63,452 nucleotides of DNA from Oscillospiraceae bacterium (GTDB lineage: Bacteria > Bacillota > Clostridia > Oscillospirales > Oscillospiraceae): the NCBI GenBank assembly GCA_017937195.1, contig JAGBEA010000049.1:1-63452 (forward strand). The letters are read 5' to 3'. Each line of letters begins with the position of its first letter. Within the stretch, counting starts at the first letter, position 1. Below are positions 12 through 9,489 of the stretch, one piece after another. The translations under genes and the position numbers were made by a program. Under the pieces are notes generated by a model. It worked only from the letters and a program-made list of their open reading frames with translations. It was not told the origin of the DNA and ran no database searches.

Positions 12-105
12 GCAGAAGTACCCAAGTGGCCGAAGGGGCTCCCCTGCTAAGGGAGTAGGCGGCTTAAAAACCCGCGCGAGGGTTCAAATCCCTCCTTCTG
101 CGCCA
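12..105 (+). tRNA. tRNA-Ser(GCT)
   Basis: Class II tRNA with a long variable arm. The acceptor stem pairs GCAGAAG (12-18) with CTTCTGC, followed by discriminator G and an encoded CCA (103-105). The anticodon loop carries GCT, which reads AGC/AGT codons. A hairpin terminator follows directly, and its 3' tail is repeated at 276-292. Confidence 0.95.
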
Positions 106-110
106 AAAAA

Positions 111-328
111 GAGGACACACCATTTGGTGTTGTCCTCTTTTTTTGTGGAGGGATTTGAACCCTAAGGGGGGGGAGCAGCGTTAAAAAATGTGCCGGTGGC
201 ACATTTTTCGTTGCGAAGTCCGCAGCAGCTGTGCTGCAAGGACGGATCGCGCAAGGCAATGCCGCAGCGGGATCTTCCCTCCTTCTGCGCCAAGAATACG
301 TCATTCCGTACGGGATGCCGTATTTTTG
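111..328 (+). repeat. tRNA-tail repeat unit U1 (three-hairpin core)
   Basis: Read from the tRNA, the unit has five parts. First comes a terminator hairpin with a T-run (111-144). Then comes an inverted copy of the tRNA T-arm: 147-163 is the exact reverse complement of 79-95. Next is a core of three hairpins (184-208, 219-243, 245-274). It ends in a direct 17-bp copy of the tRNA-Ser(GCT) tail (276-292 equals 89-105) and a second terminator-like hairpin (295-328). U4 at 8226-8432 has the same order of parts with different stem sequences. No protein is likely to be encoded here; short frames across it are by-products. Confidence 0.75.
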
Positions 329-343
329 GCGCTAAAGCCCAAC

Positions 344-381
344 AAAAAACCGCCCGCGGCAACTGCCGCAGGCGGTTTTTT
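344..381. terminator. bidirectional terminator
   Basis: A GC-rich hairpin (about 349-376) flanked by A-run and T-run on either side, so it can stop transcripts from both directions. It follows the minus-strand gene ending at 382. Confidence 0.75.
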
Positions 382-1047
382 TCAGTTCGTTTCGTTATCG
401 TCCAGTCCGGCAAAGGGATCCTGCGGGACAAAGCCGCCCTCCTCCGGCAAGGCGGGGCGTTCCTCCGCCACCGGCTGCGCCTGTCTTGCGCAGCGGATCA
501 GACAGATCCCGTAGGCCAGCGGCACCAAAAAGCTCAACAGCATATACTTTACTGCCTTTTCCGGCACCGTCTCCTCAAAGGCCTTATACATACACACGAT
601 CTGGCATACACCCAGAGCCATCGTGCTCAGGATCAGCGGGAGATAGACGGCAAAAATGCCGCCCACCATTCCCCAGATCGCATCCGGATCGGGCACAGTG
701 CCCCGCAGCTCCATCATAAAAATCGTGCTGAACATTACCGCAAACAGCAGTATATAGCAGACGATGGCAATGCCCAAAAAGATCAGCATCAACCAGCGCC
801 ATCTGCGCTTGATGCCGTGCTGCGCGGCATAGGAGTCCACCACCGCGCCCAGCGCCCACAGATTGGCTGCCGGAATCCACGCCAGCCAAGGATTTTTCAG
901 CTGCCGCTTTTTGCCCAGATCATACAAGCCGATGCCCTGCAGCACATAGCTGGCGATGCCGATGCCGAGCAGCAAAAGATAGAGCACCAGCACAAGGGTC
1001 ACAGCGCCGGCGCCCAGCGCGTCTTCATAGTAATAGGTATTTCCCAT
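382..1047 (-). CDS. multi-pass membrane protein, unknown function
   Basis: A protein of 221 residues with about four hydrophobic segments (roughly residues 14-36, 85-112, 125-152, 165-187) and an acidic, proline-rich C-terminal tail. Between the first two segments lies a short motif, LYDLGKKRQLKNPWLAWIP, of a kind I associate with uncharacterised Clostridia membrane proteins that recur near sporulating-family genomes. The start at 1047 is preferred over the ATG six bases upstream (1053), because GGGAGG touches that first ATG but lies at normal distance from the second. It appears to be transcribed alone and ends at a strong terminator. I do not recognise a function. Confidence 0.75.
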   Translation of the reverse strand: MGNTYYYEDALGAGAVTLVLVLYLLLLGIGIASYVLQGIGLYDLGKKRQLKNPWLAWIPAANLWALGAVVDSYAAQHGIKRRWRWLMLIFLGIAIVCYILLFAVMFSTIFMMELRGTVPDPDAIWGMVGGIFAVYLPLILSTMALGVCQIVCMYKAFEETVPEKAVKYMLLSFLVPLAYGICLIRCARQAQPVAEERPALPEEGGFVPQDPFAGLDDNETN

Positions 1048-1118
1048 ATTCATCCTCCCATTTTTCCGCTTTGTCTGTTCCTTTTTATATTGTAAGGACA
1101 GCAGCGCAATTTGTCAAT

Positions 1119-1148
1119 AACGCCCTGCGGGATCTGCCGCAGGGCGTT
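1119..1148. terminator. hairpin after the PqqD-like pair
   Basis: A near-perfect stem built on CGCCCTGCGG/CCGCAGGGCG lies just past the stop of the minus-strand gene at 1153. The T-run is weak, so it may be a terminator or an mRNA 3'-end stabiliser. Confidence 0.45.
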
Positions 1149-1152
1149 ACGC

Positions 1153-1512
1153 TTACTTTTCTTCCTTTTTCTTCAGGCAATAGCCGTCCTTGCCGGCGTA
1201 TTCAATGACGCCCTGCTCCAACAGAAAGCGGATCAGGCCCTTGGTATAGAGCTTGGCGTCGTCGATGCGCATCATCCGGCGGGAGATGGGATCGCGCACA
1301 ATGGTGCCCTTTATCAGCTTTTCAATACCCTCGGTGGTGATGGAGGGATGCTTCTTCAGATACTTCTCCACCTTGCTGCCCGATGCGTGCAGCAGCTTCA
1401 TCTGCAGCGATTTCTGGGGATCCTCGCCACGCTTCAAACTCCAGATATAGGTGATCACCGTGGCCAGCATAAAAAGCGCAATGGCACCTACAAATTTCAG
1501 CGTTTCGTTCAT
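1153..1512 (-). CDS. small membrane-anchored protein, unknown
   Basis: 119 residues: an N-terminal transmembrane segment (about residues 5-24), then a basic soluble region rich in lysine (for example KVEKYLKKHPSITTEGIEKL) that reads like a winged-helix-type fold, ending KKKEEK. It starts two bases after the stop of the PqqD-like gene, so the two are co-transcribed and probably translationally coupled. The C-terminal part resembles a small DNA-binding or adaptor domain, but I cannot assign a family. Confidence 0.7.
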   Translation of the reverse strand: MNETLKFVGAIALFMLATVITYIWSLKRGEDPQKSLQMKLLHASGSKVEKYLKKHPSITTEGIEKLIKGTIVRDPISRRMMRIDDAKLYTKGLIRFLLEQGVIEYAGKDGYCLKKKEEK

Positions 1513-1514
1513 TA

Positions 1515-1865
1515 TTATGCCCCCTTCTTCACATAGCAGATGAACCCGTTATTATGCAGGATCTGCATATACTTCACCAGCCGGTCATACAGCGGCTCCG
1601 CCTCTGCGCCGAACTCCGCTTTCATCAGCTCCGCCAATTCTCCCACGGTGCGCTCACCGTTGATCTGCCGGAAGATGAAGCTGCCGTGCTTGTCCAGATC
1701 GATATGGCTGATACGGGGACGGGAAAAGAATTTTTGGGCGATCCACGCATAGAAGCCGCGATGCTCCATGTGGATGGTCACCTTGTCACCCTCCACGCTC
1801 CACGTATGCTTATCGGAGATGGCGGGGACGTAATCCAGATAATTTTCTTGCTTTTTCTTGGCCAT
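1515..1865 (-). CDS. PqqD-family (RRE-like) protein
   Basis: 116 residues. The body has the PqqD pattern: IDLDKHGSFIFRQINGERTVGELAELM, a strand followed by the helix seen in RiPP recognition elements, then a second helical part. The start at 1865 is chosen because AGGAGG lies six bases upstream; a longer frame to 1931 runs through the hairpin that ends the upstream transporter gene. No RiPP precursor, radical SAM enzyme or peptidase is near, so a role in peptide modification is not supported by context. Stand-alone PqqD-like proteins of unknown role are common in Clostridia. Confidence 0.75.
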   Translation of the reverse strand: MAKKKQENYLDYVPAISDKHTWSVEGDKVTIHMEHRGFYAWIAQKFFSRPRISHIDLDKHGSFIFRQINGERTVGELAELMKAEFGAEAEPLYDRLVKYMQILHNNGFICYVKKGA

Positions 1866-1882
1866 AAGCTGCCTCCTATACG

Positions 1883-1920
1883 AAAACCGGACTATACACA
1901 TCAGTATATAGTCCGGTTCG
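1883..1920 (-). terminator. terminator of the OPT gene
   Basis: An 11-bp inverted repeat (ACCGGACTATA...TATAGTCCGGT) sits 20-50 bases after the transporter stop and just before the ribosome site of the PqqD-like gene. The T-run is short, so read-through is possible. Confidence 0.5.
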
Positions 1921-1938
1921 TGTTTTTGCAATCGCTTT

Positions 1939-3855
1939 TTATTCCTTCACGCTCTTGGCGCCCTTGTTGGCGAACAGCACAATGCTCACCAGCAGCACAC
2001 CGAAGGCCACCAGACCGCCGATGTTGCCCAGAGAGAAGCTGCCGGAGATATTGATGATATCGCCCACGCTCTTGTCACCCACAGTGATGACAGCCAGCAC
2101 GGCCAGCAGGATACCCACGATGCCCTCGCCGGCGATCAGACCGGAGGTATACAGAATACCGGACTGCACGGCATCGTTCTTGGCCTTCTCAGAGCTGTAC
2201 TTGCGCTTTTCCACCAGCCAGCGCACCACGCCGCCGGCCATAATGCCTGCGTTCAGGTGGAAGGGCAGATACACGCCGATGGCGATGGGCAGAACGGGCA
2301 GACCCAGGATCTCGATGAACACGGCGATGAACACGCCGGTGAACACCAGAGCCCAGGGCAGGTTGCCGCCCATAACGCCTTCGATGACCATCTTCATCAT
2401 CATAGCCTGAGGTGCACCCAGCTCCTCGCCGCCGAAGCCCCAAGCGGCGTTCAGCAGGTAGAGAATCGCGCCGATGGCGATGGCGGAAACCGTCACGCCG
2501 ATCAGCTCGCCGCACTGCTGCTTCTTGGGGGTGGCACCCAGCAGGAAGCCGGTCTTCAGATCCTGAGAGGTATCGCCGGAGATGGCGGCGATGATGCAGA
2601 TCACGCTGCCGATGGCGATAGCGCCCACCATACCCTCAGCGCCGGTGGTACCGGTAGCCTTCAGGGTAATGGTAGCGATCAGCAGAGTGGCAATAGCCAT
2701 ACCGGAAACGGGGTTATTGGAAGAGCCGATCATGCCCACCATACGGGAGGACACGGTGGCAAAGAAGAAGCCAAACACCAGCACGGTCAGCGCGCCGATG
2801 AAGTTGACGGGGATACCGGGGAACAGCCACATAAACACGGTGATGGCCAGGCAGGCTGCGATGACCACCTTGATGGAGATGTCCTGCTCGGTACGCAGCA
2901 CACCGGCGCTGCCCTTGCCGTAATCCTTGAAGGCGGAGGCAAAGGTGGTGACGATCATAGGCAGGGACTTGATGAGGCTGATGATACCGCCGGCAGCCAG
3001 CGCACCTGCGCCGATGTAGCGGATAAAGGAATCCCACAGACCCCAGGTACCTTCGTTTGCCCACAGCTCAGCCACGGTGGAGGTAGCCGGATAGATCACC
3101 AGATCGCTGCCGAACAGCGCGATCATGGGCATCAGCACGAACCATGCCAGCGTGGAACCGGCAAACATATAAGAGGACACGCGGGCGCCGCAGATATAGC
3201 CAACGCCTGCCAGAGCGGGCAGCACATCCACACCGATGCCGGAACCCTTGTAGGCGGGGATGGACCAGTCCACCTCGCTGGGGAACAGCTTCAGACCGTC
3301 GGTGATGAACTTGTAAGCCGCAGCGATGCCCAGACCTGCAAACACGGTGGAGGACTTGTCGCCGCCCTCTTCACCGGCCATCAGCACCTCGGCGCAGGCC
3401 TGACCCTCGGGGTAGCCCAGCACGCCGTGCTCCTTGACGATCAGCGCGCTGCGCAGGGGGATCATCATCAGCACGCCCAGCACACCGCCGATCAGCGCGA
3501 TCAGGCCGATCTCGATGAGGGAGGGCATATCGCACAGACCATCTGCTGCCCACATAAACAGAGCGGGCATAGTGAAGATGGCACCGGCGGCCAGAGATTC
3601 ACCGGCGGAGCCGATGGTCTGAACGGTGTTGTTCTCCAGAATGGAGTCACGCTTGAGGATCTTGCGGATCACACCCATGGAGATGACGGCTGCCGGAATA
3701 GAAGCAGACACGGTCATACCCACACGCAGACCCAGATAAGCATTTGCGCCGCCAAAGATCACAGCCAGCAGCATACCCAGAATCACAGAAAACACGGTGA
3801 ACTCGGGTACGACTTTATCGGCCGGAACAAACGGCTGGAATTTCTTTTCTTCCAC
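1939..3855 (-). CDS. OPT-family oligopeptide transporter
   Basis: About 638 residues, the usual length for bacterial OPT proteins, with some 14-16 hydrophobic helices spread over the whole chain. It begins VPEFTVFSVILGMLLAVIFGGANAYLGLRVGMTVSASIPAAV, the family's characteristic first helices, and carries NNTVQTIGSAGESLAAG and SSNNPVSGM further on. The family imports oligopeptides or metal chelates, usually coupled to protons. The start is taken as the GTG at 3855, because AAGGAG stands eight bases before it; a longer frame to 3966 has no ribosome site. It has its own sigma-A-type promoter and a leader of about 170 nt with internal hairpins. The substrate cannot be told from sequence. Confidence 0.9.
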   Translation of the reverse strand: MEEKKFQPFVPADKVVPEFTVFSVILGMLLAVIFGGANAYLGLRVGMTVSASIPAAVISMGVIRKILKRDSILENNTVQTIGSAGESLAAGAIFTMPALFMWAADGLCDMPSLIEIGLIALIGGVLGVLMMIPLRSALIVKEHGVLGYPEGQACAEVLMAGEEGGDKSSTVFAGLGIAAAYKFITDGLKLFPSEVDWSIPAYKGSGIGVDVLPALAGVGYICGARVSSYMFAGSTLAWFVLMPMIALFGSDLVIYPATSTVAELWANEGTWGLWDSFIRYIGAGALAAGGIISLIKSLPMIVTTFASAFKDYGKGSAGVLRTEQDISIKVVIAACLAITVFMWLFPGIPVNFIGALTVLVFGFFFATVSSRMVGMIGSSNNPVSGMAIATLLIATITLKATGTTGAEGMVGAIAIGSVICIIAAISGDTSQDLKTGFLLGATPKKQQCGELIGVTVSAIAIGAILYLLNAAWGFGGEELGAPQAMMMKMVIEGVMGGNLPWALVFTGVFIAVFIEILGLPVLPIAIGVYLPFHLNAGIMAGGVVRWLVEKRKYSSEKAKNDAVQSGILYTSGLIAGEGIVGILLAVLAVITVGDKSVGDIINISGSFSLGNIGGLVAFGVLLVSIVLFANKGAKSVKE

Positions 3856-4033
3856 TTTGAACTCTCCTTTATGATATTGTCGCGTTTCAGCAATAGCGTT
3901 GCGGTTTTGAAAGGCGTGGCCATCCGCCTGCGGCATTGCCGGCAGGTACACGCCCACGGCTTTCAAAGCTTTAGCTTGCTAAAGCTGATACGCAAAAAAT
4001 ATGCGCCCCACACTGCGGAGCGCAGACCAGCCA

Positions 4034-4062
4034 ATTATACGGATTTTTAACACCAATGTCAA
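4034..4062 (-). promoter_or_regulatory. promoter of the OPT transporter
   Basis: On the minus strand TTGACA (4057-4062), a 17-base spacer and TATAAT (4034-4039): a consensus sigma-A promoter. The resulting leader (about 4027 to 3856) contains GCTTTAG/CTAAAGC and GGCGTG/CACGCC stems and could hold a cis-regulatory element, though I see no known riboswitch signature. Confidence 0.8.
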
Positions 4063-4088
4063 GGAAAATTGGCGGCTTTTGCGGAAAA

Positions 4089-4389
4089 AGGGCAAAAAAA
4101 GGACTGACCCTTGACCGCTTTGCCGTTTGGCATTCTGTGCGATCAAGGGTCAGTCCTCTGCGTTCTTATTATCTAACATCCTTGGTTAACCTCTCTTTCT
4201 GCAGATTCCAGACGCTCCGTTTTCCGACTGTTTCATTGCTTCCGGGACATTGCTTTTACTCTTCTGTTTCCCAAAGTGGGATCACTTATATGTCGGAACT
4301 TCTCTTTGTGGGGAAAACGCCGTCTGTTGGGGCTCAACCTTCCTTGTTGAGCTTCAGGTCGTTACCTGTACATTGGTATCACCCTTTCT
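4089..4389 (-). ncRNA. structured non-coding RNA, about 290 nt, family not identified
   Basis: A complete transcription unit without a convincing reading frame. On the minus strand a consensus promoter (TTGAAA at 4419-4424, 17-base spacer, TATATT at 4396-4401) is followed by about 290 bases and a strong terminator (4094-4157). The body folds into nested hairpins: AGGT-AACG-ACCT, a 7-bp GCTCAAC/GTTGAGC stem, a CCCACAAAG/CTTTGGG stem, and an enclosing pair CAGACG...GTTTTCC with GGAAAAC...CGTCTG. A multibranched form with an AACG tetraloop argues against a 6S-type single rod. It is not tmRNA, SRP RNA or RNase P by their hallmark motifs. A raiA-type or other large Firmicutes RNA is possible but unproven. 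Confidence 0.7.
4094..4157 (-). terminator. terminator of the non-coding RNA
   Basis: A 14-bp perfect stem (4101-4114 with 4143-4156) around a loop that itself can fold, followed on the minus strand by a run of seven T. It defines the 3' end of the RNA. Confidence 0.9.
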
Positions 4390-4395
4390 GATTGT

Positions 4396-4424
4396 AATAT
4401 AGCACAAAGGGAAGCGCTTTTCAA
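4396..4424 (-). promoter_or_regulatory. promoter of the non-coding RNA
   Basis: TTGAAA, 17 bases, then TATATT on the minus strand; the spacer contains a TG one base before the -10 hexamer (TGC-TATATT), close to an extended -10 element. Start of transcription is expected near 4389. Confidence 0.8.
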
Positions 4425-4489
4425 GGCGGTAAATTGTACGAAATCACCACGAATCTTTCGTGTAAAACGCAGAATCGCACTTGGCAGCA

Positions 4490-4519
4490 TTGACAGATGG
4501 GGTGGCGCGGTGGTATAGT
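4490..4519 (+). promoter_or_regulatory. promoter facing an immediate terminator
   Basis: TTGACA (4490-4495), an 18-base spacer and TATAGT (4514-4519) point toward the HNH gene. The next thing in the transcript is a terminator hairpin (4526-4565), so most transcripts would be about 40 nt. This may be an attenuated leader for the HNH gene. Confidence 0.5.
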
Positions 4520-4525
4520 AAATAT

Positions 4526-4565
4526 GTTGGGTCAGCCAAAATTGGCTGGGTCAACGCTTTTTTAT
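4526..4565 (+). terminator. leader terminator upstream of the HNH gene
   Basis: The stem GTCAGCCAA/TTGGCTGGGTC with flanking GTTG/CAAC is followed by a run of T. Between it and the HNH gene (4566-4809) I see only AT-rich sequence and the ribosome site AAGGAGG at 4779-4785. Confidence 0.65.
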
Positions 4566-4809
4566 TTGGTTTTTGCCTGAAATGCCAACAATAATTGACT
4601 GAAGTTCTTTTTTGCAGTATGATGTTTTTACAATTCAGAAAACGGAACCCTTTCGATAGACTCTATTGAAAGCTAACTGACAAATCTTCTGTAACGCTAT
4701 TATGAGGATTGCCCTTTGAGGTTGATAGCAATAGGTCGCCCTATGGTCAGTTGCAAGCTTTTCTGAATTGATTTCATCAAGGAGGCAGCGCTTTCTTTCC
4801 AAACTGATT

Positions 4810-5778
4810 ATGGAAAAGAAAAAGCAACAGTTTATGGATGTAAACAAAGAAACAGCCATGCGCCTTTGGAATCAATCTTTTGGCAAAGAAACAAAGGTAA
4901 TCGATTTTGCAGGAAGAGTAATTGCCAAGGCGGCGTACAATGACCGCAACAGCGAATACGGTTGGAATCTCGACCATATTCTGCCCCAAAGCAAAGGAGG
5001 AGTCACCGCCGACTATAATCTTGTCTGCTGTCACATTCTGACAAACGACGAGAAGGCAAGTCGCTTTCCCTGCTTTCGCGCAAACGGCACAGAATTTGAG
5101 ATCATCAAAGTGCAGCGCCACTATGAGATCCGCCCAAGAAGTCAGCACGCCTCTTCTCAAGTTCCCACTGCAGAGCACATCAATTTTTATGATTCTGCAG
5201 CAGGGCTTCGGTTTTTTAAGAAAATGAAGGGCGTTCAAAACAAGCCACGCTTCGTCGGAACGGTTCTTGTGCGGCTTAGTGAGGTGTCCAGCAACGCTCT
5301 CATTGATTTCATTGAGGAGCTTTTCGACACCGAAAACATCTCTTTCAGCCAAGGCATTTCTCACGGGCAGCGCGACGGTCGCAGCATTATTTGCTTTTTA
5401 GAGCGAAAAGAAATCCGGTTGATCCTCCGCAATTATGATCTGCCGCTGAAAGAAGATGCGCGTTCCTTGCTCGACAAGTGCGTTCTTCTGAACACCTACC
5501 TCTCTTCCTATTTTGAAGAATGCGGATATGTCAGCGGCTATGATATTTATTACAAGGTCGATTACTTTAAAGAAAAATCTGATATCTATCGGGAACCGGA
5601 TATTCCTCGCGAATTCCAAGGCCCATTGAACAATTCCTTGTTCGTGAATGGGCTGGTTCTTGAAAACACAGGCGCAGGCGAAAAAGTGGAGCTTCCGCAA
5701 GATAAACCTTACGCGGAATACAACTTCGTTTTCACAAAGCTGTCTGACAATTTGAAAAAGGAGGCAAATGGAAAGTAA
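4810..5778 (+). CDS. HNH endonuclease-domain protein
   Basis: 322 residues. An HNH (beta-beta-alpha metal) nuclease motif lies at about residues 42-75: NLDHILPQSKGGVTADYNLV followed by CCHILTNDEKA. The D-H pair, the second H/N and the third N/H are all visible. The remaining 230 residues are an uncharacterised C-terminal region without transmembrane segments. The gene is clearly poorer in GC than the transporter and later genes, suggesting transfer. A strong AAGGAGG lies at 4779-4785 but no ATG or GTG sits at normal distance from it, so the start (4810, or a TTG at 4768) is uncertain. It ends at a strong terminator. Not IscB or Cas9: no RuvC motifs are visible. It could belong to a defence or mobile element. 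Confidence 0.75.
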   Translation: MEKKKQQFMDVNKETAMRLWNQSFGKETKVIDFAGRVIAKAAYNDRNSEYGWNLDHILPQSKGGVTADYNLVCCHILTNDEKASRFPCFRANGTEFEIIKVQRHYEIRPRSQHASSQVPTAEHINFYDSAAGLRFFKKMKGVQNKPRFVGTVLVRLSEVSSNALIDFIEELFDTENISFSQGISHGQRDGRSIICFLERKEIRLILRNYDLPLKEDARSLLDKCVLLNTYLSSYFEECGYVSGYDIYYKVDYFKEKSDIYREPDIPREFQGPLNNSLFVNGLVLENTGAGEKVELPQDKPYAEYNFVFTKLSDNLKKEANGK

Positions 5779-5800
5779 CAGCGCCTTTGCCTCGCAGATG

Positions 5801-5936
5801 AAAAAAGAACGAGAGAATGGCGGGCGACAGCCATTCTCTCTTTTCTTTGGCGCAGCGGGTGGGTTTAACCCTGAAGGGCATAAACTTCGAACCCCACCCT
5901 TGTTGAAAAAAGGCACGCTTTCGCGTGCCTTTTTTT
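5801..5936 (-). repeat. tRNA-tail repeat unit U3
   Basis: Read on the minus strand: terminator hairpin with AAGGCACGC/GCGTGCCTT stem (5906-5936), inverted tRNA-Ser tail (5884-5905), a core TTTATGCCCTTCAGGGT, a direct 16-bp tRNA-Ser(CGA) tail (5848-5863), then a second terminator hairpin (5811-5840), which also ends the HNH gene on the plus strand. It is nearly identical to U2 but has no intact tRNA beside it; the gene at 6014-6526 lies between the two. Confidence 0.8.
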
Positions 5937-6013
5937 GAAGACTAACCCTAATTTTGATACAAATGCACCCCCATTTGAGGTTAGGGGGTGTAAAGCTGTT
6001 TTGGGGGGTGCAT

Positions 6014-6526
6014 TTAGTGAGTAGGAGGTGCAAAATTGCAATATCCAACGATCGCAGGTTGTTCCCAATCGTCAAAAAAATCTAAGTTTATTACTGTGTC
6101 GGTTCCGCGATCAGCCCAAAAGCGAAGGGTAACCGAACGGGTCGGCAGTTCGCCTTCATCCAAAATCAGCATATCGCCATTATCATACGATGCAAAAACG
6201 TAAAACCGCGTTTCAGGATATTGATATTCGAGGACTTTCTTCCAATATAGTAACATACCTATCGCCTTGATAAGGAGTGATTTTACTTCATCATCTGTTT
6301 GGGCATCCAAATGTATTTCGTTTCCATCCCATTCAAGTTGGGATAAATCCTGAGTGGATTTAATCTGCTTTCTGTCCAATCCACAGAAATTGGAAACACC
6401 CCAATACTTTCTTCCGATGGCATCTTCTTTTTGCCAAATAGGATAGCTATTATCTTGTGAGATAAGATGCACATCGTCAATCTTGTATTGTTCAAGAAGC
6501 GATTCCATGGCACTATTCGTTTTCAT
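6014..6526 (-). CDS. unknown AT-rich cassette protein
   Basis: 170 residues, acidic, no signal peptide and no membrane segment; near the middle LLIKAIGMLLYWKKVLEYQYP and a tryptophan- and aspartate-rich C-terminus (INLDFFDDWEQPAIVGY). That composition fits small immunity-type or other cytoplasmic accessory proteins, but I do not recognise the family. AGAGGTGAT gives a good ribosome site, and it has its own consensus promoter (6548-6576) with repeats upstream. It runs in the direction of the tRNA-Ser(CGA) gene, between repeat units U2 and U3, and looks like a single-gene cassette acquired from elsewhere. Confidence 0.7.
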   Translation of the reverse strand: MKTNSAMESLLEQYKIDDVHLISQDNSYPIWQKEDAIGRKYWGVSNFCGLDRKQIKSTQDLSQLEWDGNEIHLDAQTDDEVKSLLIKAIGMLLYWKKVLEYQYPETRFYVFASYDNGDMLILDEGELPTRSVTLRFWADRGTDTVINLDFFDDWEQPAIVGYCNFAPPTH

Positions 6527-6547
6527 TCTGCATCACCTCTTTTTTGA

Positions 6548-6576
6548 ATTATACTATAATAGTAATTCTCTTTCAA
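6548..6576 (-). promoter_or_regulatory. promoter of the cassette gene
   Basis: On the minus strand TTGAAA (6571-6576), 17 bases, TATAAT (6548-6553): a consensus promoter placed directly before the ribosome site of the 170-residue protein. Confidence 0.8.
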
Positions 6577-6622
6577 CGATTGTTGCCTATAATTTAACGA
6601 TTACCCCTATAAATCAACGATT
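6575..6622. repeat. three AACGATT repeats, two helical turns apart
   Basis: AACGATT occurs at 6575-6581, 6596-6602 and 6616-6622, with CCTATAA-like sequence between copies, giving a 20-21-bp tandem unit. The first copy overlaps the -35 box of the cassette gene. The even spacing suggests an operator array on one face of the helix. Confidence 0.6.
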
Positions 6623-6641
6623 GAAATAGTGAATTTAAGCA

Positions 6642-6773
6642 AAGAATAACCGTCATTCCGTTGTATCAGAATGACGGTTATTCTTTGGCGCAGCGGGTGG
6701 GATTTACCCTGAAGGGCATAAACTTCGAACCCCACCCTTGCTGAAAAAAGGCACGCTTTCGCGTGCCTTTTTT
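6642..6773 (-). repeat. tRNA-tail repeat unit U2 beside tRNA-Ser(CGA)
   Basis: Starting from the tRNA on the minus strand: terminator hairpin (6747-6772), inverted tail (6722-6743), core TTTATGCCCTTCAGGGTAAA, a direct 19-bp copy of the tRNA tail (6686-6704, identical to 6774-6792), then a 15-bp perfect stem-loop (6644-6658 with 6669-6683). The layout matches U1, U3, U4 and U5. Confidence 0.8.
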
Positions 6774-6860
6774 TGGCGCAGCGGGTGGGATTCGAACCCA
6801 CGTGGATTGCTCCAAACTGATTTCGAGTCAGCCCCGTTATGACCACTTCGATACCGCTGC
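6774..6860 (-). tRNA. tRNA-Ser(CGA)
   Basis: Class II tRNA with a long variable arm and encoded CCA (6774-6776). Acceptor GCAGCGG pairs with CCGCTGC; the anticodon loop CTCGAAA gives CGA, reading TCG. Its 3' tail is copied twice downstream on its own strand. Confidence 0.95.
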
Positions 6861-7016
6861 ATATATGTTATCTCCTTAAATGGAAATAAGCCGCATATTC
6901 ACTTTTGCCTTGTCAGCCCAAGTATCATACCACATTTTTTCCTGCCGCGCAACCACATTCACCGGCATATTTTTGCTCCCCAGTGCATTTGATAGAGGAA
7001 AAGGGGGCATCAGATT

Positions 7017-7601
7017 ATGAAACCGGTTTTTCTCTATGGGACATGCGGTCAGTACCGCAACTACATCGCCGCCATCGAAAGCTGCGGCGGGCAGGTGCTG
7101 CTCTCCCGTGAGCTGTACCGTGCCTTCGAGTGCGGCGCGCTGCTGCTGCCCGGCGGCGGCGACATTGACGGCGACATCCCCCAGCGGGAGCGGTCGCTGA
7201 TCCGCTCATTTGTGGCAAGCGGACGCCCCGTGCTGGGCATCTGCCGCGGTATGCAGGCCATCAATGTCTATTTCGGCGGCACGCTCTGCCGCTATATGGA
7301 CGGGCACCAAGCGCCGCAGGGGGACATCGTCCACCCCACCCACGCCTCCGGTCTGCTGCGCCGGCTGCTGGGCAGTGCGCCCACCGTCAACAGCAACCAC
7401 CATCAGGCGGTGGTACGGGTGGGGCACGGGCTGCGGGTGGTGCAGCGTGCGGCGGACGGCACGGTGGAGGCGCTGTGCCACAATACACTGCCTATCTGGG
7501 GCGTGCAGTGGCATCCGGAGCGGCAATGCGGTGCGCTGCGGCGGAGAGATGCCGTAGACGCCGCCCCCATTTTCCATCATTTCCTCGCGCAGATCAAATA
7601 G
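7017..7601 (+). CDS. gamma-glutamyl hydrolase family (class I amidotransferase-like) protein
   Basis: 194 residues, shorter than the usual 230-250 for PuuD-type enzymes. It shows the nucleophile elbow GICRGMQ (catalytic Cys near residue 76), LLPGGGDIDGD near residue 45, the NSNHHQ stretch and the QWHPE motif with the catalytic His and Glu near residue 165. The family cleaves gamma-glutamyl bonds, for example in gamma-glutamyl-GABA. It stands alone between tRNA genes, with ribosome-site purines (GAGGAAAAGGGGG) ahead of the ATG. The substrate is inferred from the family only. Confidence 0.85.
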   Translation: MKPVFLYGTCGQYRNYIAAIESCGGQVLLSRELYRAFECGALLLPGGGDIDGDIPQRERSLIRSFVASGRPVLGICRGMQAINVYFGGTLCRYMDGHQAPQGDIVHPTHASGLLRRLLGSAPTVNSNHHQAVVRVGHGLRVVQRAADGTVEALCHNTLPIWGVQWHPERQCGALRRRDAVDAAPIFHHFLAQIK

Positions 7602-7634
7602 CGGGAAAAATCTCGGCAGAAAATAATTTTCTTC

Positions 7635-7663
7635 TTGACATAGGGAAGGTGGTATGCTATCAT
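7635..7663 (+). promoter_or_regulatory. promoter of the Gly-Arg-His-Gln-Lys tRNA cluster
   Basis: TTGACA (7635-7640), 17 bases, TATCAT (7658-7663), about 30 bases before tRNA-Gly. Confidence 0.8.
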
Positions 7664-7695
7664 AACAAAGCTGACGATTTCCACGGAGGGCGCAT

Positions 7696-7770
7696 GCGGG
7701 TGTAGCACAATGGCTAGGGCACCAGCCTTCCAAGCTGGGGATGCGGGTTCGATTCCCGTCACCCGCTCCA
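7696..7770 (+). tRNA. tRNA-Gly(TCC)
   Basis: Acceptor GCGGGTG pairs with CACCCGC; anticodon TCC in a standard arm; CCA encoded. First of five tRNAs in this run. Confidence 0.95.
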
Positions 7771-7780
7771 CTTTTTCTAT

Positions 7781-7857
<77 letters not shown>

Positions 7858-7910
7858 CTTTTCTTCTGGAGCATCGGAATCGCAGCAGCTTCCCGTGCGG
7901 ATGTATATGT

Positions 7911-7988
<78 letters not shown>

Positions 7989-7994
7989 CACGAA

Positions 7995-8036
7995 GAACAG
8001 GGATTGGGAGAGATCCCAGTCCCTGTTTCATTTTTC
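7995..8036 (+). terminator. terminator after tRNA-His
   Basis: A stem AACAGGGA/TCCCTGTT with an inner TGGGA/TCCCA pairing and a following T-run. The tRNA-Gln that follows may therefore depend on read-through. Confidence 0.65.
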
Positions 8037-8041
8037 CACAC

Positions 8042-8116
8042 AGGGGTGTCGCCAAGTGGTAAGGCAAGGGACTTTGACTCCCTCATCCGCTGGTTCGAGT
8101 CCAGCCATCCCTGCCA
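8042..8116 (+). tRNA. tRNA-Gln(TTG)
   Basis: Acceptor AGGGGTG with CATCCCT, anticodon loop CTTTGAC giving TTG, CCA encoded. Confidence 0.93.
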
Positions 8117-8148
8117 GCTTACAACGGATGGCAACATCCTTTATATAC

Positions 8149-8224
8149 GCTTCGTTAGCTCAGTAGGTAGAGCACCTGCCTTTTAAGCAGGGTGTCCGGG
8201 GTTCGAATCCCCGACGAGGCACCA
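8149..8224 (+). tRNA. tRNA-Lys(TTT)
   Basis: Acceptor GCTTCGT with ACGAGGC, anticodon TTT, discriminator A and encoded CCA. Its last 21 bases recur exactly at 8370-8390 and its last 18 (minus the final A) at 9472-9489, on both sides of the hydrolase gene. Confidence 0.95.
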
Positions 8225-8225
8225 A

Positions 8226-8432
8226 AAAGACCGACCCTTTGGGTCGGTCTTTTTGTGTGCCGAGGAGGGGATTCGAAGTTAAATCGCGATATGTCGGTGG
8301 CATATCGCAGCCGCCAGCACGAATGTTGGCGGCATCCTCTATTTTCGCCCAACGGGGCGAAAATGCAAACGAATCCCCGACGAGGCACCATATTAGCACG
8401 ATGGTTTTGATACAAAACCACCGTGCTTTTTC
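8226..8432 (+). repeat. tRNA-tail repeat unit U4 beside tRNA-Lys
   Basis: Terminator hairpin GACCGACCC/GGGTCGGTC with T-run (8226-8255); an imperfect inverted tRNA-Lys tail (8257-8277); three hairpins (8286-8308, 8310-8333, 8341-8363); a perfect 21-bp direct copy of the tail (8370-8390); and a second terminator-like hairpin (8395-8432). The first hairpin shares a CGGTGG loop with U1, while its stem has entirely different but still pairing bases. Confidence 0.78.
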
Positions 8433-8440
8433 TATATTGG

Positions 8441-8469
8441 TTGATGTTTACACCGCAATTTGATACAAT
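8441..8469 (+). promoter_or_regulatory. promoter of the alpha/beta hydrolase gene
   Basis: TTGATG (8441-8446), 17 bases, TACAAT (8464-8469), placed between repeat unit U4 and the gene. Confidence 0.65.
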
Positions 8470-8509
8470 CTATTCGGGAAACTTGAATTTGTAATGGAGG
8501 TGAAAGAGC

Positions 8510-9253
8510 GTGCATTATGTTGAATACGGTAAAGAAAACAACAACACAATCCTTCTTTTGCATGGAGGCGGATTATCGTGGTGGAATTATGAAGACGTAG
8601 CAAAATCACTTCAAAAAGATTATCATATAATCCTGCCTATACTGGATGGTCACGCAGAAAGTGATAAATCTTTTACAACCATAGAAGATAATGCTGCTGA
8701 AATCATCGCTTTTATTGATGCACATTTTGGAGGTTCTGTTTTTTTAATTGGTGGTTTATCCTTGGGTGGGCAGATTTTACTGGAGATTTTGTCGCAACGC
8801 AACGATGTTTGTAATTATGCCATCATTGAAAGTGCACTGGTTATACCCTCAAAACTAACACATTCTATGATTAAGCCTGCATTTGAAAGTAGTTTTGGGT
8901 TAATACAGTACAAATGGTTTTCTAAATTACAATTCAAGTCACTTAAAATAAAATCCGATTTATTTGACTATTATTTTAGAGATACTTGTGCCATATCTAA
9001 GAAAGATATGATTGCTTTTTTACAGGCAAATTCGTTATATTCCTTAAAGGAATCCATAAAGAACTGTAGCGCAAAGGTTCATATATTTGTTGGCGGAAAA
9101 GAAAATAAAGCAATGCAAAAATCTGCTAGAATAATTCATCAAGCATTGCAAGAGAGTGTACTGCAAGTTCTTCCCAATTTATATCACGGCGAGTTTTCCA
9201 TAAACCATGGCAATGATTATTCAAATAAAATCAGAGAGATAACTGCAGAATAA
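8510..9253 (+). CDS. alpha/beta hydrolase, AT-rich cassette gene
   Basis: 247 residues of alpha/beta-hydrolase fold. HGGGLSW near residue 18 forms the oxyanion region; GLSLGG near residue 86 is the nucleophile elbow with the catalytic Ser; a late His is visible in YHGEFS near residue 227. There is no signal peptide, so it acts in the cytoplasm; the substrate is unknown. The start is the GTG at 8510, nine bases after GGAGGT. Its base composition (about one-third GC) differs sharply from the surrounding genes. It has its own promoter, runs in the direction of tRNA-Lys and is bracketed by two copies of that tRNA's tail. Confidence 0.82.
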   Translation: MHYVEYGKENNNTILLLHGGGLSWWNYEDVAKSLQKDYHIILPILDGHAESDKSFTTIEDNAAEIIAFIDAHFGGSVFLIGGLSLGGQILLEILSQRNDVCNYAIIESALVIPSKLTHSMIKPAFESSFGLIQYKWFSKLQFKSLKIKSDLFDYYFRDTCAISKKDMIAFLQANSLYSLKESIKNCSAKVHIFVGGKENKAMQKSARIIHQALQESVLQVLPNLYHGEFSINHGNDYSNKIREITAE

Positions 9254-9284
9254 TATATTCCAATTTGATAAACTGATCAGCATA

Positions 9285-9364
9285 GTTTCAGTCCCGAAAG
9301 AGAGTTTCACTTCCCGTTTAATAGTTTCATTTTTTGAGTGAAACCAAATGAAACTATTTGAAAC
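9285..9364. repeat. GTTTCA/TGAAAC iteron-like array with 13-bp palindrome
   Basis: GTTTCA occurs at 9285, 9304 and 9324 (about 20-bp spacing) and its complement TGAAAC at 9339, 9349 and 9359 (10-bp spacing). Within it, AATAGTTTCATTT (9320-9332) pairs perfectly with 9346-9358. It follows the hydrolase gene and precedes repeat unit U5. Helical spacing suggests protein binding. Confidence 0.6.
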
Positions 9365-9390
9365 CGTATCATTATTATCAATACAATTCA

Positions 9391-9489
9391 AAAAAGTCGT
9401 TCCACCATTTGGTGGGGCGACTTTTTTGCTCTTTTGCCCGCGGGGAGTCGAAGTTTATGCCCTTCAGGGTAAATCCCCGACGAGGCACC
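9391..9489 (+). repeat. tRNA-tail repeat unit U5 after the hydrolase cassette
   Basis: Terminator hairpin AAAAAGTCG..CCACC/GGTGG..CGACTTTTT (9391-9427), a short inverted tail (9436-9453), the same TTTATGCCCTTCAGGGTAAA core as U2 and U3, and an 18-bp direct copy of the tRNA-Lys tail (9472-9489). The second terminator hairpin is missing. The core is that of the tRNA-Ser units but the tail is that of tRNA-Lys, so core and tail assort independently. Confidence 0.78.

Follow-up and report, generated by a model that had tools for sequence, protein, structure and literature searches.

The ssrA islands of Dehalococcoides are inserted in the T-loop of the transfer-messenger RNA (tmRNA) gene, are bounded by 20-bp repeats of the RNA gene end and have the serine recombinase DsiB. 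In the passages that describe them, the 3′ end of dsiB overlaps attL, and 15 of the 31 islands are without an integration module (PMC3146451). Here we analyzed a stretch of 63,452 nt (the window; positions 1 to 63,452 of contig JAGBEA010000049.1, from an Oscillospiraceae bacterium), in which five repeat units, U1 to U5, carry copies of the 3′ end (tail) of the transfer RNA (tRNA) gene beside which they lie. The units form a scattered and probably mobile family in distantly related bacteria, some of them carrying genes and some ending larger islands. Two further systems serve for comparison. Each gene cassette of an integron has one folded attC, the cassettes stand in head-to-tail arrays at one fixed site, and the integrase is encoded outside the cassette. 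At the ends of REP and IS200/IS605 elements, an asymmetrically bulged hairpin has a tetranucleotide at its foot.

Direct inspection of the window confirmed all five units of the original prediction, in position and in build. On the tRNA strand, a terminator-like hairpin, an inverted tail, a core, a direct tail copy and a second terminator-like hairpin follow each other, the last being absent in U5. The tail copies are in every case those of the local tRNA, Ser-GCT (U1), Ser-CGA (U3 and U2) or Lys (U4 and U5). The tRNA genes were called by ARAGORN, and the 16-nt tail from TTCGAA^ or TTCAAA^ onward was searched with at most two mismatches. All five tail copies start at the same base of the T-loop, at the junction TTCGAA^T or, in the case of Ser-GCT, TTCAAA^T. 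The displaced tails lie at +187 (U1), +166 and +1266 (U4 and U5), and +88 and +926 (U3 and U2) from the tail of their own tRNA, and the junction-to-junction pieces measure 187 nt, 166 and 1,100 nt, and 88 and 838 nt, respectively. The final junction of U2 is altered to GGTTAA^ACCC. The two long pieces, U4-U5 and U3-U2, contain one gene each. None of the window units matched Rfam at gathering score, and no integrase gene was found in the window's elements by a Pfam search of the window proteins.

The conserved end of the short-core units reads GGGAT(TC or GA)GAAG-TTTA-T(G/A)-CCC-loop-GGG-TAAA^TCCC-tail. Of the 89 distinct short units tabulated, with chance matches such as L033 and L286 among them (L and G denote our loci and genomes), 77 have the bulge TG and 12 have TA; GAAG is preceded by TC in 43, by GA in 41 and by another dinucleotide in 5. 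The inner stem varies on both sides (CTGC/GCAG, CTTTTGC/GCAAAAG, CCGC/GCGG); the Peptococcaceae units L054 and L133 have longer inner hairpins (43-45 nt matches). Over 84 rows and 9 positions of the outer stem, 498 of 756 oppositions between inverted tail and tail were Watson-Crick, as against 390 when the tails were dealt anew among the units (standard deviation 9, highest 415, 500 shuffles; the rows are not independent by descent). The inverted tail thus tracks the local tail much more closely than chance would allow. The G-T oppositions were the most depleted (39 seen, 66 expected) and A-C less so (70 against 89). An RNA of the tRNA strand would tolerate G-T oppositions, so that these depletions do not speak for pairing in such an RNA. 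The string GAAGTTTATGCCC of this end was not found in the literature searched.

The spread of the short core was examined with reversed patterns as controls. With at most three mismatches, the 20-nt core occurs at exactly three places in the 1.6-Mb genome, all in the window (control, 0). With two mismatches, 3 of 149 relative genomes matched, the window's own included, whereas the control matched 6 of 149, so that this search proves nothing alone. The three are the window genome, a genus-mate (G013) and a genome with a chance-like match in a coding sequence (L005); the two places in G013 are two tandem unit pairs, one directly behind tRNA-Ser(CGA). A two-arm pattern matched 16 of 400 family genomes (control, 1 of 400), about nine of them apparently real on inspection.

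In a public genome collection, GAAGTTTATGCCC-loop-GGGTAAA^ was found in 60 stretches, by their record titles chiefly from Clostridia (Oscillospiraceae, Peptococcaceae and others) and, many of them, from Patescibacteria (Falkow-, Moran-, Pacei-, Peregrini-, Gracili-, Peri-, Shapiro- and Magasanikbacteria). Further stretches are from one Micavibrio-labelled record, unnamed bacteria and one Bacteroidota contig end without a tail copy. A Pedobacter match (L033) is probably due to chance; by our arithmetic, about one chance match to the strict pattern is expected in 257 Gb, and L033 resembles that one. The Micavibrio-labelled genome (G495, 1.3 Mb; L047, L059, L079, L156) falls among the relatives of G498 beside Patescibacteria, and its label may mislead. 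We therefore claim a spread, broad and patchy, for two distant groups only. An upstream copy of the unit's own tail is present in the locus for 54 of the 68 matches in these stretches. Of these 54, 51 have the first tail copy behind the T-loop TTCGAA^, and 52 have the nearest copy within 125 nt. The other 14 matches include contig ends, poor-tail units, the Pedobacter match and L063, whose partner is 15.6 kb away. Nine tRNA isotypes (Ser, Lys, Arg, Tyr, Ala, Pro, Gln, Val and His) supply the tails. The units are hence not peculiar to this window, and the fixed order of parts recurs in other genomes. It is this order around the core, together with the shuffling test, that makes the case for a family, and not the mismatch search alone.

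Other searches gave mixed results. The exact pattern had no match among the IMG/VR viral contigs, and a 36-nt query found no place covered over at least 80% in plasmids and phages. A stricter variant matched 7 of 241 Peribacterium relatives, at least one by chance. Another pattern matched all 42 genomes picked for having units (hereafter, unit genomes), compared with 11 of 42 for its reversed control. One further variant was about as frequent as its reversed control and is mostly noise; of two G488 matches inspected, one is a real unit at tRNA-Val and one is without a tRNA. At the same tRNA-tail junction, other cores stand in Patescibacteria (L086; L088 and L066 on the reverse strand), such as ..GACCCGTAAGGGCAACGAA^TCCC, which suggests that further end families may exist.

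A loose pattern gave 117 distinct matches across the loci collected, 76 of them with an upstream tail copy. The distance is 54-123 nt in 68 of the 76, mostly near 100 nt (roughly tail, terminator and end), and 217-4,458 nt in the remaining 8. Thus, the cargo-less form is the commonest. The other 41 matches include chance matches and cut-off loci, and those in recombinase stretches look like chance on inspection. Units often stand in tandem, in some cases as exact copies (L039, L057); a Peptococcaceae locus (L133/L158) has a four-copy array. Larger elements were also found, namely one of 2,036 nt with a glycosyltransferase (L062), one of 1.1 kb with a 260-aa gene (L156) and one of about 2.8 kb (L066).

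Filled and empty sites were compared at 20 tRNA-Lys loci of the genus, picked by similarity to the window's tRNA cluster (L234, L235 and L237 through matches of 63-232 nt only). Six carry the long core (the window, L216, L220, L224, L230, L235), three the short core (L219, L222, L237), and one is ambiguous (L225). The other ten have neither a unit in the 150 nt examined nor a further tail copy, sought with at most two mismatches in the fetched locus. Within one genus, comparable tRNA-Lys loci thus occur both filled and empty. At tRNA-Ser(CGA), two of seven loci have the short core. In L219 and L237, from two genus genomes, apparently the same short unit stands at tRNA-Lys, its right tail copy decaying and its CCA end lost. 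A comparison of long-core units within the genus and in L163 bore out the two core types, long in U1 and U4 and short in U2, U3 and U5, which form two families with a common build. GGAT(TC or GA)GAA is the left part common to the long cores. Their right part is close to GAGAAGAGAA^ in four of five genus-mates, including L220, L224 and L235, and also in L163; it reads GTGGAGAA^ in L230, GCCGAA^ in L216 and AAACGAA^ in U4. Both cores occur at one tRNA tail in L163.

Three islands of 4.4-15.6 kb contain a large serine recombinase, finish on the right with the short core and have matching tails on either side. L191/L214 with L146 spans 15.6 kb from a tRNA-His tail to a unit with the same tail, with the recombinase at the tRNA. 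L199 is 4.4 kb long at tRNA-Ser(GCT); GGAG replaces GAAG in its core, and the same end occurs again 12.5 kb further. L159, at tRNA-Ser(TGA), measures 4,458 nt, and its recombinase has PF00239, PF07508 and PF13408. L211 is a weaker case, as its right tail matches over 9 nt only. The recombinase gene enters the tRNA gene antisense in L214, L199 and L211, and hence in two of the three firm islands. Its 3′ end was found in an RNA gene in none of 16 clostridial recombinase loci. The link between recombinase and core is firm for three islands and is not general.

The recombinase genes L214:13601-15190, L199:779-2383 and L211:9602-11104 have no stop before the attachment site. The C-terminus would therefore differ between the integrated form (..RDSNPR.. 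in L199 and L211, ..WDSNP in L214) and the circular form (..DLP..); in L214 and L199, the reading frame continues through the core as DLPLRGIN. Conservation of the core as a C-terminus code in the circle was rejected as a general reason, since the core lengths differ by one or two bases. A relative of the L199 recombinase is present in 147 of 281 G498 relatives (E <= 1e-20). Of 40 stretches of up to 20 kb, hand-picked among the listed matches, 31 adjoin a tRNA 3′ end, which favors the integration system proposed below. At L160:8939-13191 (G488), a unit end adjoins defence-type genes with matches to PDC-M22A/B, to caspase and to ThsB (a TIR-like model), and the L160 contig has a recombinase 62% identical to that of L159.

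From these results, we propose, as an evenly balanced judgment, that the units are the ends of elements, for the most part cassettes without cargo, of a system that integrates specifically in the T-loop and whose build is that of the Dehalococcoides ssrA islands. Each unit would be the right-hand end of a small integrated element together with the tRNA tail that the element displaced. The element would enter the tRNA gene in the T-loop (TTCGAA^TCCC) and supply a tail copy, often with a terminator, so that the tRNA stays whole. It would end in the inverted tail, GAAG and the hairpin TTTATG-CCC-loop-GGG-TAAA, which the enzyme may read. Repeated insertions at the same point would give the head-to-tail arrays. 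Most of the observed elements are cargo-less (about one unit per 100 bp), and some have one or a few genes, as U4-U5 and U3-U2. A few have their own large serine recombinase, which we take as the enzyme. The small units, too, would be products of this site-specific recombination and not of local duplication, either moved in trans by a serine recombinase of the DsiB kind or left by deletion.

The likeness to the Dehalococcoides islands, as far as the passages on them go, extends to the T-loop insertion, the direct 3′-end repeats, the tandem arrays and a short motif before the repeat (PMC3146451). The entry of the recombinase gene into the tRNA gene in L214 and L199 resembles the overlap of dsiB with attL (PMC3146451). 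The statement in the original prediction that no described element has this build was thus too strong; the ssrA islands have much of this architecture but lack the conserved hairpin (PMC3146451). They use one target, tmRNA, and are kilobases long (PMC3146451), whereas the units use nine tRNA isotypes and are mostly about 100 bp. Their motif is TTCAGRSMGMRKCCA in place of the hairpin, and those passages describe no cargo-less form of about 100 bp (PMC3146451). The cis-mobilizable elements and accretion arrays, as treated in the same source, are likewise without integration genes, flanked by attachment sites and in tandem beside complete elements (PMC3146451). The attachment-site-flanked build without a recombination gene is seen here as well. 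Unlike those elements, most units are reduced to ends, and one end is used across phyla; for the units, movement in trans is a proposal. As in tRNA/tmRNA islands, the elements lie between direct repeats of an RNA gene 3′ end; an integrase gene is present only in L159, L199 and L191/L214.

In how they work, the units are like tRNA-targeted islands, and their arrays follow the logic of integron cassettes. A folded site, anchored arrays, an integrase outside and asymmetric unpaired hairpin bases are common to units and cassettes; by description, the units differ in that the anchor is the tRNA T-loop and the outer stem is the tRNA tail. A bolder version, in which a trans-acting recombinase reads the folded single-strand hairpin, seems improbable to us. 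The units would then be tRNA-anchored integron-like cassettes in which the outer stem, being complementary to the tail of the target tRNA, makes the inverted tail a built-in address. A change of that stem would redirect them to any TTCGAA^T tRNA, and in this way they would have spread through Clostridia and Patescibacteria. With REP and IS200/IS605 ends, the units share the tetranucleotide at the hairpin foot and the asymmetric bulge. In contrast to IS200/IS605, no Y1 transposase match was obtained in 25 of the 42 unit genomes, and to our knowledge tRNA-tail repeats are not a habit of these elements.

Several observations weigh against the proposed integration system. The hairpin loop varies in length, which is unusual for half of a double-stranded recombinase site; the length classes (24-28, 36-37 and 43-44) recall helical-turn spacing, to which we give no weight because the 36-37 class resembles one old insertion. 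In L159, the recombinase gene is located on the side of the unit end, clear of the tRNA. No core was present anywhere in the 40 hand-picked stretches with relatives of the L199 recombinase; 8 have tail-like matches downstream, and the contigs of 8 of the 31 at a tRNA 3′ end stop within roughly 4 kb. Seven tRNA-anchored recombinase stretches in unit genomes (L200-L206) have no core-bearing tail copy downstream within the fetched DNA. No recombinase island with this core was seen in Clostridia, no tRNA was found in 16 of the clostridial recombinase loci listed (1.9-3.4 kb each), and PF07508 is present in 26 of 42 unit genomes. With the last two results, the enzyme in the window's lineage is only inferred. 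Furthermore, the repeat takes in the terminator at L036, L048, L051 and L054, which also fits local duplication. Finally, in RUG11176 (L048, L050) two similar elements stand in the same order behind tRNA-Ala and tRNA-Ser (96% identity over 82 nt; 86% over 175 nt for the longer one), with purely local, exact tails. This resists the proposal because a classical crossover should carry the old tail along, and it is easier with target duplication or strong homogenizing of tails.

Target duplication would be the rule if the units were mini-transposons, that is, 28-101 nt elements inserted by an enzyme, with the tail (mostly 13-22 nt) as a target-site duplication between the T-loop and the CCA end. 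The tails would then always be local, as in RUG11176, since they are made from the target each time. The tail identity often stops near the tRNA 3′ end, and the left ends are variable and the right ends conserved, as this reading would have it. We nevertheless consider it rather unlikely: inspection by eye revealed no terminal inverted repeats, and the serine-recombinase islands use the same end. Cas1, which we take to be the tRNA-end integrase of casposons, was found in 8 and Y1 transposases in 17 of the 42 unit genomes, many of them incomplete metagenome-assembled genomes; reverse transcriptases and DDE transposases were not searched. Both Y1 and Cas1 were rejected as the general common enzyme. 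Tyrosine recombinases (general family PF00589) occur in 41 of 42 unit genomes, and a host Xer-like enzyme could be the mover.

We doubt that the units are mere relics, in which the arrays arose by tandem duplication and slippage of old islands and nothing moves today. The exact tandem copies, the repeats taking in the terminator and the decayed right tails would fit such an origin, but it does not readily account for the same end of about 25 nt in distant phyla and at nine tRNA isotypes, for the cargo genes or for an inverted tail that follows the local tail. A functional RNA, for example a pseudo T-arm or a minihelix with CCA, that acts on tRNA maturation and was duplicated with its tRNA is very improbable. 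The predicted fold, the inner stems changed on both sides, the CCA often kept in the tails and the terminators behind the units are in its favor. However, the common form, like the window units, sits behind a terminator-like hairpin, most relatives are without a unit, the right tail copies decay in L219 and L237, and the tRNA strand has no sign of G-U tolerance. Thus, of the two roles considered in the original prediction, that of an RNA with an action on tRNA 3′ ends gained no support. Mobile DNA with tRNA tails as its boundary is supported by the filled and empty tRNA-Lys sites, the genes between tails and the recombinase islands with the same core.

If the proposed integration system is real, a cassette-scale, cargo-light form of mobile element is added to the known insertion sites at tRNA genes. 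The units are common to host-dependent Patescibacteria and gut Clostridia, and their right end is a searchable signature. The complementarity between element and tRNA raises the testable question of how integrases choose among tRNAs.

Features of the five units, their host tRNA genes and the genes between them in the window
Feature	Position	Strand	Basis and remarks
tRNA-Ser(GCT), host of U1	12..105	+	ARAGORN; tail from 89 (TTCAAA^TCCC)
U1 terminator-like hairpin	106..144	+	sequence inspection
U1 inverted tail GGAGGGATTTGAACCCT	147..163	+	sequence inspection; reverse complement of T-arm and tail start
U1 long core with hairpins	164..275	+	sequence inspection, predicted fold
U1 displaced tail copy TCCCTCCTTCTGCGCCA	276..292	+	tail search
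U1 second terminator-like hairpin	293..328	+	sequence inspection
U2 second terminator-like hairpin	5801..5847	-	sequence inspection
U2 displaced tail copy ACCCACCCGCTGCGCCA	5848..5864	-	tail search
U2 short core GAAGTTTATGCCCTTCAGGGTTAA	5865..5888	-	inverted tail 5889-5905, terminator 5905-5936
Cargo gene, 170 aa, between U3 and U2	6014..6526	-	Pfam, PADLOC: no match
U3 second terminator-like hairpin	6642..6685	-	sequence inspection; left part of cargo piece 6702-5865
U3 displaced tail copy TCCCACCCGCTGCGCCA	6686..6702	-	tail search
U3 short core GAAGTTTATGCCCTTCAGGGTAAA	6703..6726	-	pattern search; inverted tail directly upstream, 6727-6745
U3 first terminator-like hairpin	6745..6773	-	sequence inspection
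tRNA-Ser(CGA), host of U3 and U2	6774..6860	-	ARAGORN; tail from 6790
tRNA-Lys(TTT), host of U4 and U5	8149..8224	+	ARAGORN; tail from 8208
U4 first terminator-like hairpin	8225..8255	+	sequence inspection
U4 inverted tail TGCCGAGGAGGGGATTCGAAG	8258..8278	+	sequence inspection
U4 long three-hairpin core	8279..8373	+	predicted fold; relatives at tRNA-Lys in five other genus genomes
U4 displaced tail copy	8374..8390	+	tail search
U4 second terminator-like hairpin	8391..8435	+	sequence inspection
Cargo gene, alpha/beta hydrolase (PF00561), between U4 and U5	8510..9253	+	Pfam
U5 terminator-like hairpin	9391..9428	+	sequence inspection
U5 inverted tail, partial	9436..9449	+	sequence inspection
U5 short core GAAGTTTATGCCCTTCAGGGTAAA	9450..9473	+	pattern search
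U5 displaced tail copy	9474..9489	+	tail search

Adjoining U2, the window contains an Rfam 'Staphylococcus-1' RNA (RF03112, 125.8 bits) at 4634-4767 (+), a name not met in our literature search. A 336-aa gene at 4768-5778 (+) lies directly 3′ of this RNA and has a weak HNH_4 match, below the curated cut-off. The Staphylococcus-1 RNA and the HNH_4-like gene are possibly another mobile unit.

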